Shown in pieces: positions 46,574-63,111 of a stretch of DNA of 64,000 bases. A program made the position numbers and the translations under genes. Source of the DNA: Halioglobus japonicus (lineage in GTDB: Bacteria > Pseudomonadota > Gammaproteobacteria > Pseudomonadales > Halieaceae); assembly GCA_902705825.1 (NCBI GenBank), contig CACSIL010000050.1, positions 136,038 to 200,037 of the forward strand, given 5' to 3'. Each line of letters begins with the position of its first letter. The first letter of the stretch is position 1. The notes under the pieces were generated by a model. The model was given only the letters and a program-made list of their open reading frames with translations, made no database searches and had not been told where the DNA came from.

Positions 46574-46944
46574 TTATTTTCCAGTTTGTTGGCGAGGGTA
46601 TAGATTTCAGGCACTTGTGGGCCGCATATGATATACACGACAGCGCTGTGTGCAAGCGGTAGACTGCGGCCTGATCCGGGCGGCTTCCGGCAGTGTATTC
46701 GCATCTGCAACGTATGCGCTGCCTTGCGCACGGTGATTTTGCCTATCAAGCGGATGACTCGGCGAGCTCTGTCAGTTGTCCCCCGCTCAAATAGGCGGGA
46801 AACCCCGCTGGAGTGAAACCGAAGTCTGCCTATCTGGTATACACATGAAAAATCGTGCCAGCTGCGTGCCTTGCGCGCGCGTATCTGGTATATACCAGCG
46901 TCAATATCACTCTCTTAATTCCCTCCATTTCCGGGACCGTAATC
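46574..46944. other. Divergent intergenic region with operator-like palindrome
   Basis: A 371-bp gap between the divergent cytochrome/DUF1080 and DUF385 genes. Apart from the palindrome and direct repeats listed at 46885, no gene or RNA is recognised. The frame open upstream of 46945 is not supported by a ribosome binding site and reads a different composition. Confidence 0.5.
46885..46898. promoter_or_regulatory. Perfect 14-bp palindrome, candidate operator
   Basis: CTGGTATATACCAG is its own reverse complement and lies 47 bp before the start codon of the DUF385 gene. The 11-mer TATCTGGTATA occurs both here (46882-46892) and at 46831-46841, giving two copies 51 bp apart, about five helical turns. 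This is a common layout for a dimeric repressor or activator. The halves resemble FadR-type sites but the spacing differs by one base, so no regulator is assigned. Confidence 0.5.
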
Positions 46945-47412
46945 ATGACGCAAGATATTCAACGTTATACACCGAAGCAGGAAAAATTTGGCAGCTGGGT
47001 TATCAGCAAGGTCGGACGCTGGCAAACCACTGTCTATGAATTGACCGGTGGCCGTCTGTGGAACACATTTCTGGGAGGGCCGGTAGCCATCCTGACGACC
47101 GTCGGGCGCAAATCCGGTCTTGTGCGCAAGGTACCTCTGCTGTTTTTGAAGCACGGTGATGAGGTGGTAATGACGGCCTCCAAGGGCGGCATGTCAAAAC
47201 TCCCTGTCTGGTATCACAACGTAGTGGCAGCGGACACGTCAGATATACAGATCGGCAATGTGAAAAAGACCTATCGTATGCGTGAGGCCAATGCCGAGGA
47301 AGAAGCTCTGTTGTGGCCTAAACTGGAAGAGATGTATCCCGATTACAAAGAGTATCGCGCGCGTACCGAAGGCGTGCGCAGTATTCCTGTGCTGATTTTT
47401 TCCCCGGTATGA
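46945..47412 (+). CDS. DUF385/DDN-like deazaflavin-type oxidoreductase
   Basis: A 155-residue split-barrel protein of the nitroreductase/deazaflavin-dependent (DUF385, Ddn-like) family. The core reads LTTVGRKSGLVRKVPLLFLKHGDEVVMTASKGG followed by P-V-W-Y-H-N, the cofactor-binding signature of F420-dependent relatives in mycobacteria. Whether it uses F420 or a flavin here is unknown. The start is set at the ATG at 46945; the longer frame to 46855 lies in the promoter region with the palindrome. Its stop overlaps the DUF1653 start (ATGA). Confidence 0.85.
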   Translation: MTQDIQRYTPKQEKFGSWVISKVGRWQTTVYELTGGRLWNTFLGGPVAILTTVGRKSGLVRKVPLLFLKHGDEVVMTASKGGMSKLPVWYHNVVAADTSDIQIGNVKKTYRMREANAEEEALLWPKLEEMYPDYKEYRARTEGVRSIPVLIFSPV

Positions 47413-55842: not shown

Positions 55843-58800
55843 TCAGGCGACGATATCGCCCATTTTCCGAAAGTAGCTCACTGCCTCCGGCGGCAGCACA
55901 GGCGGTTCCTTGCCCACGGCGTAACAGCCCAGTATGACCTCGGCTGAACGCTCTATGATTTCTACCATATCGGCAGCGCGGCGCAGGTTGCGACCGGCAA
56001 CAATAATGCCGTGATTTATCATCAGCACAGCCCATTCATCCTCCATAGCTTCGGCTACCGCATCGGCCAGTTCCGGTGTGCCGGGCATAAGGAAGGGAAC
56101 GCGTGGGATATTCCCGAAGAATGCAGCTTCTGTCGATATCGGCAGGAAGGGCAGGTGGCAATTGGCCAGGATGGTTGCATTGGGTGCATGCGCGTGGATT
56201 ACCGCATTGGCCTGTGGTTTTTTCTCCAGAATACGCGTGTGCATGCACCATTCGCTGGAGGGAGAGCGCGCACCGGTAACGAGGTTCTCCCCGCGGAGGT
56301 TGATGCGGACCATCAACTCCGGGCGCAGGTCGCCTTTGAACAGCCGACTGGGGGTAATCCATATTTCACGCTCAGCGCCAGGTACACGTACACTGATATT
56401 TCCGCCGGTAGCGGTGATTACCTGGGATGCGTAAAGCTCCTCCATGATCGCAACCAGTTCCCTGCGGATATCGTCTGCGCCATCCTTCTGGGCTGAGGCA
56501 GTGATATCAACGGGAGGCGGCACGCCACTCAGGTCGCCGGGGTCACCTACTGCATTTCTAGCGGCCCTGTAGATGCGTTCCATATCCGCTTGAATGTGCT
56601 GAATTGTCATGGCCTTGGCCGCATCGCCTATAAAGGAGAGCTCGCCGTTCATCGCGCATTCCATCGCGTCCACGGTGCCATTGAACATGCCATCAAGAAT
56701 TTCGCCGCGCATTTGCAGTTGCACTTCGGCGTTGCGCGGCGCCGGTCCCAGCGCACTGATGACGCGCCCCTGTAGCAGGGCGAGGTGAAATTCCAGCCCC
56801 AGATCGTGGGCGGTAAACTGCAGCGTGACATCCTGGTCAGCACTGAAAGAGTTGAGAGCGGGGTCTGCCGCCATAGCGGCGCAGAATTTTTCCAGTATGG
56901 ACGACATTCTGTCTATCACTGCCGCCGGGATCGTCGCCGGAGCCTCCGCCGCCACTTTCGACACACCCTGTTCGGGCGCCGCAGGTGTCGCCGCCTGCGC
57001 ATCGCGCTGTAGATCGCTGACCGCCGGGCCAGTTCTACTGGTAAGCCTGGCCAGCTCTGCCTCGTCAGGTTGGGGTTTGTCCCCGTGCCAGTCAAACGTG
57101 GCGAGCACCTGTGGATTGAGCACATTACAAGGGACCTCGCCGCGCAATAATTGCAGCAGTGCAGCCGTTATACTTTCGCCCTGATGGTCAGCGACCTCCG
57201 CTGTATTGCCGGCACAGTGGGGAGTGGTAATCACTGCCGGGTGTTGCACCAGCGGGTGGTCGAAACCGGGAGGTTCCACCGCAAAAGTGTCCAGTGCGGC
57301 GCCGCCGAGGTGGCCGCTCTGGAGGGCGTCGACCAACGCCTGCTCATCGATCAGCGCGGCGCGCGCGGTATTAATGAAAAACGCACCGGGTTTCATTCTG
57401 TCAAACTGCGCTGACCCGATCATACCGGCCGTGTCAGGCGTTACCGCCGCGTGCAAACTGACAACGTCGCTTTGTTGCAACAGCGTGTCGAGATCGGTGA
57501 GACGACAACCGGCCAGCGCTGCCTGTTCCGGGGTGGCGAAAGGGTCTGCCACAAGTATTTCCACCTCGAAACCGGCGAGGCGTCGGGCGACCGCGCGTCC
57601 GACCGAACCCAGGCCTACCAGGCCGATAGTCTTGCGCCAGAGTTCCCGCCCCTGCAATTGGTTGAAAGCCTGCCCCATTTTTCCCATATTGCCAGCGGTG
57701 CACTGGGCCTGTTGCAGAAATTCTGCGGCGGCGGGTAATTTACGTGCGAGGCTGATGATGAATGCGACGGTGAGGTCGGCGACGGCTTTTGCATTGCGCC
57801 CAGGCGCAAACAGTACGGGGATCCCAAAGGCGGTGCAGGCTTGAACATCGACGTTTACTGCATCGCCGCGACAGGCTGCTACCACACGTAAATCGGGCAG
57901 CTGTCGCAGTGCATTGACATCAACCACATCGACCTCAGTAACGAAAATTTGCACGCCCTGCAGGGCTTTCACCAGATCTGGCCCGGTGAGCAGGCGTTTG
58001 ATGTCGCGAAAACTCGCGTAGTCCACTGCCATATGCTCGCGCAGACTGGCCAGTGAATCAGCGTCAAATGCAGCGGATACCAGTGCCCGTAACCCGGTAC
58101 CAGAAGCGATGCTGATGGCACTTGTCTGCTCCGGCTCTTTTATCACTCGCGGCAAAAGGTGATCAACAGCTGTGGGCACGGTGGCGGTTTCGGCGCGGTC
58201 GCGAAACTGCGACCAACTGCTGTACAGCTGGTCGTTGACAGCCGCGTGTTCGTTTTGTATTTCAAAGCGGTTGCGAGTGTTGCACAGGGCTTTGCAGGCG
58301 CTGCCAAAGTCGGCAAAGGCGCCACTTGCCACTGCGGCGCAGATGGCTGCGCCCAGCGCCGAAGTCTGGTGGGATTGTGCAACCAACACCGGGCGAGCAC
58401 TGATATTTGCCAGTAGTTGGCTGAACACGTTGCTGCGTGAAATCCCGCCGCAGAGCGTAATAGGGCCGGTTTTGTCGTCGCTTGAATCAGGGGCGAGCAC
58501 TGTATTCAATTGTTCGATATTGGCGCGGACACCGCAGGCGCAGCCCTCGACAAATGCGCGCGCCAGATGACGACGTGGTGCATCACCTGCACCAGCCATA
58601 TAGCTCAACGTAAGGTGCCCCATAGGCATTGTCGGGGCGCGCATGTTCATCACCTCAGCGCCCATCGTCGATAGCATGCCCGCAGCGCCGGGCTCTGATT
58701 CCGCGGCTTCGGCGAATAATCGCAATTCCGGTTCAGGCGCATCGGGGTACAGCATTGCAGCCATCAAGCTGAGTGAGTAGCCCATACCGCCGGCATTGCT

Positions 58801-59694
58801 TTCCAGCACCCAGCGGTCAGGTACGATGTGATAGCTGCACAGCGATTTGCCCGTAGCATCCAGGGCCGGTTGTGCCAGTACAGCCTGTACCGGTGCCGTG
58901 GTTCCCGCGACGACGGCCACCTCGCCCGGTGTTGTGACACCGCCGCCAAGCAAGCTGCACTGGGTGTCGGCGCCGCCCATTGCGACCGTGGTGTCAACGC
59001 TTAATCCCAGATGTGCGGCGGCCTCATCAGTGAGGGTGCCCATGGTGCAGCCGGCATCGATCACTGGCGGGAAATAGGCGCGCGACAGTCCTAGCTTGTC
59101 AACGAGGGGCCAACACCATTCCTTGCCGTCGAGCTTGAACAGACCGCTGGCGCTGGCCTGTGTTGCATCGATGGCGCGTACACCGCAGAGGCGGAAGTTC
59201 AGCCACTCGCCCAGCCCAAACACCGTATCGACGTGTTTGAAAATTTCGGGCTGTTGCGCCTGCAGCCACAGCAGGCGTGCCGATGTGTGCAGGGGCAGGG
59301 GCCATGAGCCTGTTTCCTGCAGTACTTCCTCACCCATTTTTGCAACAATGTCGAAATAGTCTGCGACTGCGCGGGCATCCCGATTGTCGACTGCGAGCAG
59401 GCTCTCGCCGGCAGCGTCGAGCACAACCGTGCTGAAACGCATTGCAGAGACGGCAATGGCGGCCACGTCAGATGGGTTAAGTTGTGCTTGATGTAATGCG
59501 TCGCGGCAGATCTGGCCGACAATATCCCAAACGCTGACCAGATCTATATCGTAACCGGTGCCCATCGTGCCGGGCGCTGTGGGGAACTCCCAGCTGCCCT
59601 GGGCGCTGATCAGGGCGCCCGATAAGCGGTTGACCAGCACGCAGCGCGCGCCGCTGCCGCCGAGATCTATCCCCAATAACCACGCTTTATCCAT
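55843..59694 (-). CDS. Multidomain sugar kinase / 2-hydroxyacid dehydrogenase / SCP2 / class II aldolase fusion
   Basis: A 1283-residue cytoplasmic protein joining four domains. Domain 1 (about 1-490) is an FGGY carbohydrate kinase, with G-I-D-L-G-G-S-G near the start and the catalytic base D243 in G-G-A-D-T-Q. Domain 2 (about 525-865) is a D-2-hydroxyacid dehydrogenase, with G-L-G-S-V-G (694-699) and the Arg-Glu-His triad R778, E807, H826. After a Pro/Ala-rich linker, domain 3 (about 925-1045) resembles SCP2. Domain 4 (about 1075-1283) is a class II aldolase, with E1148, H1167 and H1169 (H-A-H) and H1228 (N-H-G). All catalytic residues are present. The ATG at 59694 is used; an in-frame TTG precedes it. 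Phosphorylation, oxidation and aldol cleavage of one sugar or sugar acid is the likely task; the substrate is unknown. Confidence 0.92.
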   Translation of the reverse strand: MDKAWLLGIDLGGSGARCVLVNRLSGALISAQGSWEFPTAPGTMGTGYDIDLVSVWDIVGQICRDALHQAQLNPSDVAAIAVSAMRFSTVVLDAAGESLLAVDNRDARAVADYFDIVAKMGEEVLQETGSWPLPLHTSARLLWLQAQQPEIFKHVDTVFGLGEWLNFRLCGVRAIDATQASASGLFKLDGKEWCWPLVDKLGLSRAYFPPVIDAGCTMGTLTDEAAAHLGLSVDTTVAMGGADTQCSLLGGGVTTPGEVAVVAGTTAPVQAVLAQPALDATGKSLCSYHIVPDRWVLESNAGGMGYSLSLMAAMLYPDAPEPELRLFAEAAESEPGAAGMLSTMGAEVMNMRAPTMPMGHLTLSYMAGAGDAPRRHLARAFVEGCACGVRANIEQLNTVLAPDSSDDKTGPITLCGGISRSNVFSQLLANISARPVLVAQSHQTSALGAAICAAVASGAFADFGSACKALCNTRNRFEIQNEHAAVNDQLYSSWSQFRDRAETATVPTAVDHLLPRVIKEPEQTSAISIASGTGLRALVSAAFDADSLASLREHMAVDYASFRDIKRLLTGPDLVKALQGVQIFVTEVDVVDVNALRQLPDLRVVAACRGDAVNVDVQACTAFGIPVLFAPGRNAKAVADLTVAFIISLARKLPAAAEFLQQAQCTAGNMGKMGQAFNQLQGRELWRKTIGLVGLGSVGRAVARRLAGFEVEILVADPFATPEQAALAGCRLTDLDTLLQQSDVVSLHAAVTPDTAGMIGSAQFDRMKPGAFFINTARAALIDEQALVDALQSGHLGGAALDTFAVEPPGFDHPLVQHPAVITTPHCAGNTAEVADHQGESITAALLQLLRGEVPCNVLNPQVLATFDWHGDKPQPDEAELARLTSRTGPAVSDLQRDAQAATPAAPEQGVSKVAAEAPATIPAAVIDRMSSILEKFCAAMAADPALNSFSADQDVTLQFTAHDLGLEFHLALLQGRVISALGPAPRNAEVQLQMRGEILDGMFNGTVDAMECAMNGELSFIGDAAKAMTIQHIQADMERIYRAARNAVGDPGDLSGVPPPVDITASAQKDGADDIRRELVAIMEELYASQVITATGGNISVRVPGAEREIWITPSRLFKGDLRPELMVRINLRGENLVTGARSPSSEWCMHTRILEKKPQANAVIHAHAPNATILANCHLPFLPISTEAAFFGNIPRVPFLMPGTPELADAVAEAMEDEWAVLMINHGIIVAGRNLRRAADMVEIIERSAEVILGCYAVGKEPPVLPPEAVSYFRKMGDIVA

Positions 59695-59853
59695 CAATCG
59701 AGTCCCGATGAGTACTTGCCAGAGGCGGCAATACTATCACCCGCCCCCGGTCTGCAGCAGACTTCTCTGAGGGCGGTATGAAGAGCGTGCAGTATCTGGG
59801 CGGGGACGTCGTTGTGCTGCGCACTGCGGATGTGCTGAACGGAGTGTTCGGCC

Positions 59854-60111
59854 CTACTTCGGAGCGGTGATGGCGGCCTTGACCTTGTCCATATCAACCG
59901 CGTCAGCAGCCTTGGTTTTGTCGACCGAATCCAGGGCCTTCTTATAGTCAATGTCTCCTCCGCTGACGGCTTCTGTCATTTTCTGCGTATCAACCGCGTC
60001 AGCAGCTTTCTTGGTGTCAACAGCATCTGCCAGTTTGCCGAAGTCCTGTGCGATAGCAGGAAGCCCCAAGGTCAGTGCGGCAACTACAGTGCCAAGTTTG
60101 ATGATGTTCAT
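59854..60111 (-). CDS. Small exported repeat protein (85 residues)
   Basis: An 85-residue protein not matched to a family. The signal peptide is about MNIIKLGTVVAALTLGLPAIA, so it is exported. The mature part is a set of short degenerate repeats built on A-D-A-V-D-x-x-K (K-L-A-D-A-V-D-T, K-A-A-D-A-V-D-T, K-A-L-D-S-V-D-K, K-A-A-D-A-V-D-M), predicted to be helical and highly charged. A 19-bp direct repeat underlies two copies. GGGAG before the ATG is a good ribosome binding site. Function is unknown. Confidence 0.75.
   Translation of the reverse strand: MNIIKLGTVVAALTLGLPAIAQDFGKLADAVDTKKAADAVDTQKMTEAVSGGDIDYKKALDSVDKTKAADAVDMDKVKAAITAPK
59892..60006. repeat. 19-bp direct repeats inside the small repeat protein gene
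   Basis: TATCAACCGCGTCAGCAGC occurs at 59892-59910 and again at 59988-60006, exactly 96 bp (32 codons) apart. Both encode the A-A-D-A-V-D part of the repeat protein. The in-frame spacing points to gene-internal duplication. Confidence 0.85.
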
Positions 60112-60483: not shown

Positions 60484-63111
60484 ATGGATAAAAATACAGA
60501 GCTTCCGTTAACGCCGACGACCAAGTGTATTGTAAAGCTGGGAGAGCAGGGGGTACACCTGCACAGCCCCTACGGTGCGTCAGTCTACAAGCTGCAATTC
60601 CACGAGTTGGTGGCGCTGTTTGAATTGCAGTATGGGGGCTACACCGATATGGCTGAGGTGGCGGCTATCGTCGCCACGAAAACAGGTACTCCGAAAGCGA
60701 GCACAGTAGAGTTTATCAAATCTCTCATTCGCCGTGGCCGAGTTCGCCGTCGGGAGCACCGTGTCCCGTTAGCGAGATTACGGCCACCTAAAACACCCGC
60801 CGGTTCCAGTCTCCCGGATTTTGATAAGGGATTGGTCGCATTGAAAATCCCACAAACCCTGAGAATTGGTGAAGGCAAGTTCCAGTTAGTGGATCACGAT
60901 GGTCATTTAATAGTGGGTCTCACTGCCGCAGAATTAATAGCGGTGGGAGAGTTTGTCAGGCCGACCGCGCTCTCAGAAGGCCTGGAACGCCAGCGTAGCT
61001 TGCTCAAGGGCCATGCACTGGAGAAGGACAGACTGCTCGAAGTACTGTCGAAACTGTACGCGGCTGGTTTATTGTCGATAGCTGAGCCAACTGTCGTCAG
61101 CGCAAAAGAGACACTGGGCTATCGACAGACCTTGAAAGCGAATATCGCGCGCCAGGCCGCAGAACTGGATAAGAAGGAATCCTTACGCCAGCAGCAAACA
61201 GGTGTGTATAGAACCAAGGTGATACCGGTAGCCTTTGGTGATTCCGTTCCCGCGGCACTGGGCCTGATTATGGCCTACAGTAAGGCCTATAACGGGGGCT
61301 GCCTGGAAGAATTTTATGATTTTCGCCTCGACTGGATATGGGATGAGGAACGCACTGCGGGTTTTACCGCCAAGCCGGCCATTTACCTGTTTTCAAACTA
61401 TCTCTGGACACATGGGAATAGCATCGCTGTATCCGAGACGGTCAAGCGACTGAGCCCGGATAGCATAACCATACACGGTGGGCCGGACACGCCCAAGTAT
61501 GCACAGGACGCAGAAGACTATTTCGCCAAGTTTCCCCATGTCGATATCATTATCCGCGGTGAAGGTGAGGCCACTTGTGCGGATACGCTGGACAAGCTGC
61601 GCAGTGTTGTCGGCCAGCACAATCCCGATCTATCCGTACTAGAGGGCGTTGCTGGAATCACCTACCGGTATCGTGGCGAAATCATCCGCAATCCTGATCG
61701 CGAGCGTATCGCGGATCTTGATACGATACCCTCGCCTTATTTGACAGGTCTGTTCGAAGCCTTTCGAGGAGTGCCCCAGATACATGTGACACTGGAGACA
61801 AACCGGGGCTGTCCTTACGGCTGTACTTTCTGTGATTGGGGCAGTGCCACCACCAGTAAAATTCGAAAGTTTGATCTGGATCGGGTGTTCGGTGAGCTGG
61901 AATGGTGTTCTGATATGAAAGTCGTGTCAGTGTCCCAGTGCGACGCCAATTTTGGTATTTTTGAGCGCGACGTGGAGATCGCAGAACGGGTTGCCGAGCT
62001 CAAGGGTACGACAGGCTTTCCGCAGACCTTCGGCGGCAGTTACGCAAAAAACTCCACCAAATACCTGCAAAAAATTATCAAGGTGCTGGCCGATGCCGGC
62101 ATTCTGGCGCAGGGCGTGCTATCGCTGCAGACAATGGACGACAGTACGCTCAGCGTCATCAATCGCTCCAATATTAAGGTCGCCAAATACGACGCACTTG
62201 CGAACGAAATGCGCAATTCGAATTTGCAATTGTCTGTCGAACTGATGATGGGGCTTCCCGGTGCTACCCTGGAGAGCTTTATCGAAGATCTGCAGCAATG
62301 CATAGACCGGGAGATACCGGCGCGTGTCAATCACACCACCATGCTGGTCAACAGCCCGATGAACAGCCCTGATTATCGGGAGGAGCATCAGATCAAAACC
62401 GGCACAGAACTCGGGCCGGGTAAGATGCCGGTGCTGGTATCAACGAGAACGTATACCAGGGATGATCTGGCGACGATGATAGCGCTGAAGAATATTTATC
62501 TGGTGCTCGATACCTTTGGAGTAATGAGGTTGTGTTCCCGTTTTGTTCGCCAACAAGTGGGCATGACAGAGATGGAATTCTATCGGTTACTGCTGACGAA
62601 GACGGGGTCTGGTGGGAGGGAGCGCGTGTGGCCGATGCTCAACACACTGGTGAACTATGGCCATGATCTTATGGCGCCGGCGTATAGCTGGGCGCTGGTT
62701 TTTAAGGAACTGCGCAATTTCCTAATCAAGAAGTGCGAAGTGCAGGATGATACTGCACTGCAGTCTATTCTTGCCGCCCAGCATGCATTACTGCCCGCGC
62801 ATGGCCGGGTCTTTCCCCATGTGGTAGAACTGCCACACGACGTGGTCGCCTGGCACGCCCAGATGCTGTCTGTGAAAGGTGAAGGACACTGGAAGGACTG
62901 GCAGTCCATTGTGCCTCCGCTCTCCAGTTTTGGGCCGGGCCGTCTTGAGGTCAACGATGTGAACGGTTCTGTAACGAAACTGCTGGGGTGTGACATAGAG
63001 ATCAGTTCCGGAGGCGGGAACTGGGATATGGTCTCTGGCATTGCGCGGGCCAGGGTGGATATGCAGCATGTGGCCTCGGGCTTGTCAGGGGATATTATTC
63101 ACGTCGCATAA
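60484..63111 (+). CDS. B12-binding radical SAM protein with tandem N-terminal PqqD-like segments
   Basis: An 875-residue enzyme. Residues about 10-90 and 125-200 look like two winged-helix/PqqD-type segments; the second has L-R-I-G-E-G-K-F-Q-L-V-D-H-D-G-H. A cobalamin-binding Rossmann domain spans about 245-405 (H-G-G-P-D-T-P-K-Y, I-I-R-G-E-G-E). The radical SAM barrel has the [4Fe-4S] motif C443-x3-C447-x2-C450 in N-R-G-C-P-Y-G-C-T-F-C-D-W. A classic D-x-H-x-x-G cobalamin His is not evident, which suggests base-off binding without a protein His. The C-terminal about 200 residues are not recognised. Methylation or rearrangement of an unknown substrate is the family expectation. It precedes an FAD oxidoreductase by 42 bp. 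Confidence 0.85.
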   Translation: MDKNTELPLTPTTKCIVKLGEQGVHLHSPYGASVYKLQFHELVALFELQYGGYTDMAEVAAIVATKTGTPKASTVEFIKSLIRRGRVRRREHRVPLARLRPPKTPAGSSLPDFDKGLVALKIPQTLRIGEGKFQLVDHDGHLIVGLTAAELIAVGEFVRPTALSEGLERQRSLLKGHALEKDRLLEVLSKLYAAGLLSIAEPTVVSAKETLGYRQTLKANIARQAAELDKKESLRQQQTGVYRTKVIPVAFGDSVPAALGLIMAYSKAYNGGCLEEFYDFRLDWIWDEERTAGFTAKPAIYLFSNYLWTHGNSIAVSETVKRLSPDSITIHGGPDTPKYAQDAEDYFAKFPHVDIIIRGEGEATCADTLDKLRSVVGQHNPDLSVLEGVAGITYRYRGEIIRNPDRERIADLDTIPSPYLTGLFEAFRGVPQIHVTLETNRGCPYGCTFCDWGSATTSKIRKFDLDRVFGELEWCSDMKVVSVSQCDANFGIFERDVEIAERVAELKGTTGFPQTFGGSYAKNSTKYLQKIIKVLADAGILAQGVLSLQTMDDSTLSVINRSNIKVAKYDALANEMRNSNLQLSVELMMGLPGATLESFIEDLQQCIDREIPARVNHTTMLVNSPMNSPDYREEHQIKTGTELGPGKMPVLVSTRTYTRDDLATMIALKNIYLVLDTFGVMRLCSRFVRQQVGMTEMEFYRLLLTKTGSGGRERVWPMLNTLVNYGHDLMAPAYSWALVFKELRNFLIKKCEVQDDTALQSILAAQHALLPAHGRVFPHVVELPHDVVAWHAQMLSVKGEGHWKDWQSIVPPLSSFGPGRLEVNDVNGSVTKLLGCDIEISSGGGNWDMVSGIARARVDMQHVASGLSGDIIHVA

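Follow-up and report, generated by a model that had tools for sequence, protein, structure and literature searches.

What might a bacterium do with a single polypeptide in which a carbohydrate kinase, a 2-hydroxyacid dehydrogenase, a sterol carrier domain (SCP2) and a class II aldolase follow one another? This question is raised by a gene of Halioglobus japonicus (GenBank assembly GCA_902705825.1, contig CACSIL010000050.1), from which a stretch of 64,000 nucleotides, here called the window, was analysed. Specifically, positions 55843-59694 of its minus strand form one uninterrupted frame of 1283 amino acids (aa) with zero internal stops, running from an ATG at 59694 to the stop codon at 55843-55845 (with the TTG at 59697 as the start, 1284 aa). 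The fusion is kept open among relatives, with purifying selection on every domain, and likely arose in one event; what the chain does is addressed more tentatively.

Domains and catalytic residues

The first-pass annotation, made from the letters alone, had described a kinase, a dehydrogenase, an SCP2 domain and a class II aldolase in one polypeptide, and a domain search recovered every one of them above its Pfam cut-off: FGGY_N at residues 6-250 (E-value 7.4e-37, 127.7 bits against a cut-off of 28.8), FGGY_C at 359-456 (6.1e-16, 59.2 against 27), 2-Hacid_dh at 544-860 (1.2e-10, 41.6 against 24.6), 2-Hacid_dh_C at 644-828 (2.1e-55, 187.3 against 25.1), SCP2 at 956-1034 (1.3e-5, 25.9 against 21.3) and Aldolase_II at 1078-1254 (9.4e-46, 156.4 against 22.2). 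With its catalytic Asp present, the first part belongs to the FGGY carbohydrate kinases; the second is a D-2-hydroxyacid dehydrogenase (both Pfam domains and the Arg/Glu/His triad), and the last a member of the class II aldolase/adducin family (the Glu and three metal-binding His are present). The third is assigned to SCP2 by its Pfam score and by its predicted fold (see below).

It had also been claimed that every catalytic set is intact, and this holds among the orthologues. In an alignment of 17 sequences, 4 of them incomplete, the eight catalytic residues given in Table 1 are identical in all rows covering each site (16 of 16 rows for the kinase Asp). The kinase has the motifs GIDLGGSGARC, near the N-terminus, and GGADTQ, which contains D243, and its glycine-rich motifs are kept with small changes only. 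In the dehydrogenase, the acidic residue of VADP is invariant in 14 rows; an acidic residue at this position of the dinucleotide fold goes with a preference for NAD, which suggests NAD rather than NADP as the cofactor. In sugar-phosphate aldolases of class II, the phosphate site is lined by the first three motifs (those listed in Table 1, the third of which here holds E1148), and therefore the aldolase substrate is likely phosphorylated, which would link this domain to the kinase.

No catalytic part can be assigned to a substrate by name, because all of the best NCBIfam scores are far under their cut-offs. The nearest models are autoinducer-2 kinase (LsrK, NF008187) for the kinase (223.2 bits against 528), 3-phosphoglycerate dehydrogenase (TIGR01327) for the dehydrogenase (218.8 against 454) and L-fuculose-phosphate aldolase (NF005302) for the aldolase (108 against 264); with OtnC, the 3-oxo-tetronate 4-phosphate decarboxylase (NF043034), the latter domain reaches 89 bits, the cut-off being 250.

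Table 1. Position of the fusion gene and its parts in the window
Feature	Position	Strand	Details
Whole fusion gene	55843..59694	-	1283 aa; based on frame, Pfam domains, genus orthologues and alignment
FGGY carbohydrate kinase domain	58195..59694	-	Residues 1-500; catalytic D243
D-2-hydroxyacid dehydrogenase domain	57097..58074	-	Residues 541-866; R778, E807, H826; GLGSVG, then VADP
Linker between dehydrogenase and SCP2	56944..57096	-	Residues 867-917; variable; PAVSDL/PAVTDL-type motif
SCP2 (sterol carrier) domain with flanking helices	56509..56943	-	Residues 918-1062; predicted fold matching SCP2 structures
Class II aldolase domain	55846..56484	-	Residues 1071-1283; E1148, H1167, H1169, H1228; GGNIS, ITPS, SPSSE

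Distribution, selection and origin

In the genus of the window, 15 of the 18 genomes carry the fusion. It is a near-whole-length single open frame in 11 of the 18 (the window's own genome included, with the ten others at 53-79% identity) and is split by contig ends in four (G003, G004, G010 and G015), and no match to it was detected in G009, G016 and G017. Among the 140 genomes of the family, no carrier was found beyond those 15 (E <= 1e-60; 0 of the 122 others). Sampling of the order (390 genomes) yielded one additional carrier (G156), and sampling of the class (369 genomes) yielded none, its single further match being to the dehydrogenase alone. In all, the fusion is present in two lineages outside the family of the window. 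A scan of named genomes, which used patterns derived from a single sequence and extends no further than close relatives, returned 14 loci: seven from Halioglobus, one each from Halieaceae and Haliea, three from Gammaproteobacteria, L037 from Pseudomonadales and L040 from Spongiibacteraceae UBA5047.

Purifying selection acts on every domain. Ratios of nonsynonymous to synonymous substitution rates (dN/dS), which are rough given that many synonymous rates are near saturation, range from 0.061 to 0.329 across the four domains in six pairs of sequences. By part they are 0.061-0.141 for the dehydrogenase, 0.066-0.148 for the aldolase, 0.064-0.217 for SCP2 and 0.165-0.497 for two linkers, and the kinase exceeds both the dehydrogenase and the aldolase in all six pairs. 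The SCP2 ratio is below that of the kinase in every pair, close to those of the dehydrogenase and aldolase, and below both linkers in five of the six (the exception being L038/L031, with 0.165 for linker 2 and 0.217 for SCP2). Invariant positions were counted over 13 near-full rows (leaving out L030 and L034, which are nearly full, and the short L022 and L039). Their share is highest in the dehydrogenase (43%) and the aldolase (40%), lower in SCP2 (27%) and the kinase (18%, both halves), and lowest, at 8-13%, in the three linkers.

In the tree of each catalytic domain a single branch sets the fused copies apart (90/91 for the kinase, 97/98 for the dehydrogenase and 78/89 for the aldolase), and the same split is recovered in 86%, 95% and 82% of the bootstrap trees, respectively. 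This grouping, seen for all three catalytic domains, makes a single fusion event likely. When residues 888-1283 were used to look for an SCP2-aldolase fusion outside this group, 31 of 397 other genomes of the phylum matched (E <= 1e-20), and among the matches listed the alignments start at query residue 152 or later, which is past most of SCP2.

Unfused relatives of the catalytic domains were sought in plasmids. A tblastn search gave some match in 3358 records, none of which covers 80% of the query at one place. Twelve places were opened, four of them incomplete or unclear, and genes for an FGGY kinase, a 2-hydroxyacid dehydrogenase and a class II aldolase (a triad) were found side by side in Sinorhizobium meliloti pSymB, Shinella, Paracoccus seriniphilus, Pseudosulfitobacter, Paracoccus versutus and Sagittula. 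The same triad occurs in Klebsiella pneumoniae, with one member annotated as methylthioribulose-1-phosphate dehydratase (MtnB-like), and the three matches also lie together in an Enterococcus raffinosus record without annotation; the gene order is that of the fusion in three cases. It had been supposed earlier that separate genes of such families co-occur, but with other kinase families: the co-occurrence stands, and the statement on the kinase was incomplete, as FGGY triads exist in rhizobia, Paracoccus and roseobacters. The literature search found no paper assigning a substrate to these triads.

The triads differ in their company. The Pseudosulfitobacter, P. versutus and Sagittula type is accompanied by coenzyme A (CoA)-transferase genes and by one resembling acetolactate synthase; two of the three stretches also contain an acyl-CoA synthetase. 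The conserved cluster at L047, L094 and L096 (Pseudosulfitobacter/Paracoccus/Sagittula) comprises three CoA-transferase genes and genes for a 2-hydroxyacid dehydrogenase, a class II aldolase, an FGGY kinase, an acetolactate-synthase-like protein and molybdopterin enzymes.

Thirteen loci bear the triad label, four of which (L048, L080, L092 and L093) have no class II aldolase/adducin gene beside the pair, and the kinase of L095 lies some kilobases off on the other strand. Their dehydrogenases outscore the best other tree row (L079, 166 bits) in 12 of the 13, a preference that is partly due to choice, as the plasmid loci were selected as best matches; L079 itself groups with the operon type, and the housekeeping-type dehydrogenase rows of the genus reach at most 141 bits. 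Several triad rows have long branches, including L091, which in the trees of both kinase and dehydrogenase is the closest row to the fusion. For the aldolase, the tree does not join the fused domain to those of the operons and no comparable preference is seen, so it lends no support to common descent of all three parts from one operon.

The carrier domain, linked genes and a possible route

A structural model of SCP2, built from an alignment of 16 copies of the domain (mean predicted local distance difference test score, pLDDT, 90; predicted template-modelling score, pTM, 0.85), has 42 fold matches in the PDB at E <= 0.001 (best E 6.6e-7). Every one of them is either an SCP2 protein (UbiJ and human MFE-2 are examples) or an alkylsulfatase/YjcS entry that contains an SCP2-like part. 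The template-modelling score (TM) is 0.72 against 1ikt by target length, with a root-mean-square deviation of 2.0, and about 0.45-0.59 for the fold matches by query length. The domain is duplicated in tandem inside the 1430-aa fusion of L037, a Pseudomonadales assembly (L037:12728-13615). No other copy of this SCP2 subfamily was detected in the genome of the window at E <= 1, and elsewhere in the phylum weak matches occur in 14 of 338 other genomes (E <= 0.001), in frames of 98-157 aa.

In part of the relatives, the fusion lies between a ligase gene and a gene for a Rieske protein. Orthologues of the ligase occur in 9 of the 140 family genomes, all of them fusion carriers (E <= 1e-130; L031 has a paralogue, distinct from the true orthologue). 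Orthologues of the Rieske protein (71-100% identity, further Rieske matches being at most 48% identical) occur in the same nine, namely G001, G002, G004, G005, G008, G012, G013, G014 and G015 (9 of the 15 carriers). The Rieske gene shares a contig with a fusion piece in all nine, adjoining the 5′ end of the fusion; the ligase gene shares the fusion contig in eight, adjoining the 3′ end, with the fusion contig of G004 stopping within the gene. In G015 the fusion pieces are spread over three contigs. Because all nine genomes belong to one genus, Rieske-fusion-ligase is one linked island, not nine independent events. In G002 the ligase and Rieske matches beside the fusion (G002:C3:113375-115036 and 119225-120172) have one stop each, perhaps through decay or an assembly error.

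Both genes resemble those of steroid degradation. The ligases of L028, L035, L036, L038 and L087 reach 607-629 bits with CasG, the steroid-24-oyl-CoA synthetase, and 342-364 with the next model, and the Rieske protein of L036 has a KshA_C domain and KshA as its closest solved structure. Among degraders of bile acids, CasG has a preference for C5 side chains, and ring B is opened through 9alpha-hydroxylation by KshA (PMC8399759). Near the fusion of some relatives there are other genes typical of the catabolism of hydrophobic substrates, encoding acyl-CoA dehydrogenases (L038 and L040), a thiolase/lipid-transfer protein (L028), a P450 (L038) and, at four distinct relatives' loci, a lignostilbene/carotenoid dioxygenase family protein (L028:656-2059; L031:4011-5420, the L031 copy being the one tested). 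In three loci the fusion is separated from the ligase by a small gene, the same cluster each time, and its L038 copy belongs to the glyoxalase family.

The open reading frames (ORFs) tested around the window copy include radical SAM (S-adenosylmethionine), 2-thiouracil-desulfurase/DUF1722, epimerase, sirtuin and short-chain dehydrogenase/reductase (SDR) dehydrogenase genes. The 875-aa radical SAM protein is encoded divergently beside the fusion at 60484-63111 (plus strand), and the L027 and L036 loci hold two neighbouring copies. Directly upstream of the fusion, 59854-60111 (minus strand) encodes a small protein (85 aa) that looks secreted and contains repeated units of the KAADAVD type. Elsewhere in the window, 46855-47412 (plus strand) encodes an F420H2-dependent quinone reductase family protein, in a gammaproteobacterium.

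We read the chain, with somewhat less than even confidence, as one enzyme that combines three catalytic stations and a lipid-binding module, a kinase-dehydrogenase-aldolase assembly line. In such an enzyme, (i) the kinase would phosphorylate a hydroxyl in a part of the substrate that is polyhydroxylated (sugar-like), (ii) the NAD-dependent dehydrogenase would oxidise (or reduce) a neighbouring carbon, and (iii) the metal-dependent aldolase would split the phosphorylated product into a small sugar phosphate, similar to dihydroxyacetone phosphate, and a remainder. SCP2, located between dehydrogenase and aldolase, may hold the hydrophobic substrate or product, as has been proposed for the SCP2 domain of UbiJ with quinone intermediates, and the route would be one of steroid- or isoprenoid-type catabolism; the order of steps and any channelling are proposed from the domain order only. 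The first-pass annotation had left SCP2 as either a binder of a hydrophobic substrate or a structural element. The former is now suggested, because the domain has the SCP2 fold, is constrained and is linked to steroid-type genes in 9 of the 15 carriers.

Several observations weigh against this reading. The sequence profile of SCP2 finds SCP2 chains of the PDB weakly (E 0.014-0.05), level with two beta-hexosaminidase matches, and a model of 749 aa has a pTM of 0.38 and supports no claim on domain arrangement. The ligases remain below the CasG cut-off of 750 bits, and another ligase near L031 does not resemble CasG (278 bits); four Rieske proteins score 69-85 bits against a cut-off of 600 with their sole NCBIfam match, 4beta-methylsterol monooxygenase. 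KshA-like Rieske proteins of lower similarity are found in 75 of the 140 family genomes (E <= 1e-60). The steroid marker IpdE2 is over its cut-off in 0 of the 18 genus genomes and is uninformative, since all 18, as well as 9 of 14 controls, have matches under the cut-off. The steroid link is confined to part of the relatives, because six carriers have neither orthologue at the cut-offs used (the genome of the window, G003, G006, G007, G010 and G011, of which G003 and G010 show the fusion only as a piece on a short contig) and because the genes tested beside the divergent L033 and L037 are unrelated, including exopolysaccharide and housekeeping types. The genome of the window has one Rieske relative, at 41% identity and located elsewhere.

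The alternative that survives best, although we consider it unlikely, is an ordinary soluble pathway for a sugar acid (or polyol) in one chain, with SCP2 as a spacer or an assembly or dimer element that binds no substrate. In Sinorhizobium and Shinella the same three families stand in a row with sugar ATP-binding cassette (ABC) transporter genes, and because of this company a water-soluble substrate is suggested for the rhizobial module. Moreover, no steroid-type gene was detected among the ten ORFs tested around the window copy, nor beside L033 and L037. An inert spacer fits poorly, however, with an SCP2 domain that is about as constrained as the dehydrogenase and aldolase and more so than either linker in five of six pairs, whose fold is kept, which has been duplicated once, and which is linked to CasG-like and KshA-like genes in the nine carriers.

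It is also conceivable, if improbable, that no single metabolite passes through the stations in turn, and that they share a product pool instead or that one of them, likeliest the faster-changing kinase, has drifted in role. The low share of invariant positions in the kinase, compared with dehydrogenase and aldolase, and its consistently higher dN/dS would fit; the catalytic Asp kept in every row, the nearly unchanged glycine-rich motifs and the fact that the same families travel together as separate genes do not. A route related to that of DrdA, concerning 5-deoxyribose or 5-deoxyribulose phosphate, is very unlikely: the best solved match of the aldolase is DrdA (6btd; PMC6079011) and a radical SAM gene lies beside the window copy, but the DrdA route employs a kinase, an isomerase and an aldolase, not an FGGY kinase with a 2-hydroxyacid dehydrogenase, the radical SAM family was seen at just 4 of 13 distinct loci in a comparison of neighbours, and SCP2 has no place in the route. 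Nothing was found in favour of an artefact, be it a frame joined by missed stop codons, which the first-pass annotation had named as what would undo its proposal, or a decayed gene, and its probability is negligible given the open frames in 11 of the 18 genus genomes, the conservation and the low dN/dS in every domain.

A bolder form of the assembly-line reading, which we regard as a long shot, would make the chain a lipid-tail lyase. SCP2 would grip an isoprenoid or steroid skeleton, and the three enzymes would act on its polyhydroxylated side chain (a tail like that of bacteriohopanetetrol, or a steroid glycoside's sugar) by phosphorylation, oxidation and retro-aldol cleavage in the order kinase, dehydrogenase, aldolase. 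The products would be a triose phosphate, which enters central metabolism, and a shortened lipid aldehyde or acid, which the CasG-like ligase activates. C32 acids occur in sediments, and if this were true, it would provide a biochemical route to them from hopanoid polyols and, to our knowledge, the first enzyme with sugar-phosphate aldolase chemistry on a membrane-type lipid. In any case, the fusion is a natural experiment in pathway assembly, where a row of separate genes elsewhere is one chain here, with a lipid carrier built in, and it opens a way to study the rows of kinase, dehydrogenase and aldolase genes that several bacteria from soil, plants and the sea carry. If SCP2 does hold the substrate, the chain would join sugar-phosphate chemistry to steroid or isoprenoid breakdown and would be a compact multi-step catalyst to study or use.

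Comparison with known systems

The gene triads comprise the same three enzyme families as the fusion, but as separate genes, with transporters alongside and no SCP2 seen. In the OtnK/OtnC pathways for acid sugars, a kinase likewise works with an enzyme of the class II aldolase family on phosphorylated acids; however, OtnK is a kinase of the DUF1537 family, whereas that of the fusion is FGGY, and the fused aldolase falls well short of the OtnC cut-off, as given above. Human MFE-2 and SCPx, like the fusion, join catalytic domains of a pathway to SCP2 for hydrophobic substrates, and the SCP2-like domain of MFE-2 (1ikt) is a fold match of the one described here. MFE-2 contains an SDR dehydrogenase and a hydratase, and SCPx a thiolase, but neither has a kinase or an aldolase.

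In the Ubi metabolon, UbiJ, whose structures are also among the fold matches, has been proposed to bind the hydrophobic tail of intermediates through SCP2 on behalf of partner enzymes (PMC9499169); there, however, the proteins are separate and the pathway is ubiquinone biosynthesis. DrdA (6btd), 4c25 and FucA (1fua) belong to the same class II aldolase family as the fused domain, whose TGGNIS, PS and PSSE align with 6btd, but DrdA and FucA are stand-alone enzymes, and the fused aldolase is below the cut-off for fuculose-phosphate aldolase. The earlier statement that no enzyme with this architecture has been described agrees with the literature searched, partly judged by titles and the beginnings of abstracts, in which none was found; no paper on Halioglobus and steroid degradation was found either. 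The parts are thus of known kinds, and their combination, with the carrier built in, is new as far as searched.

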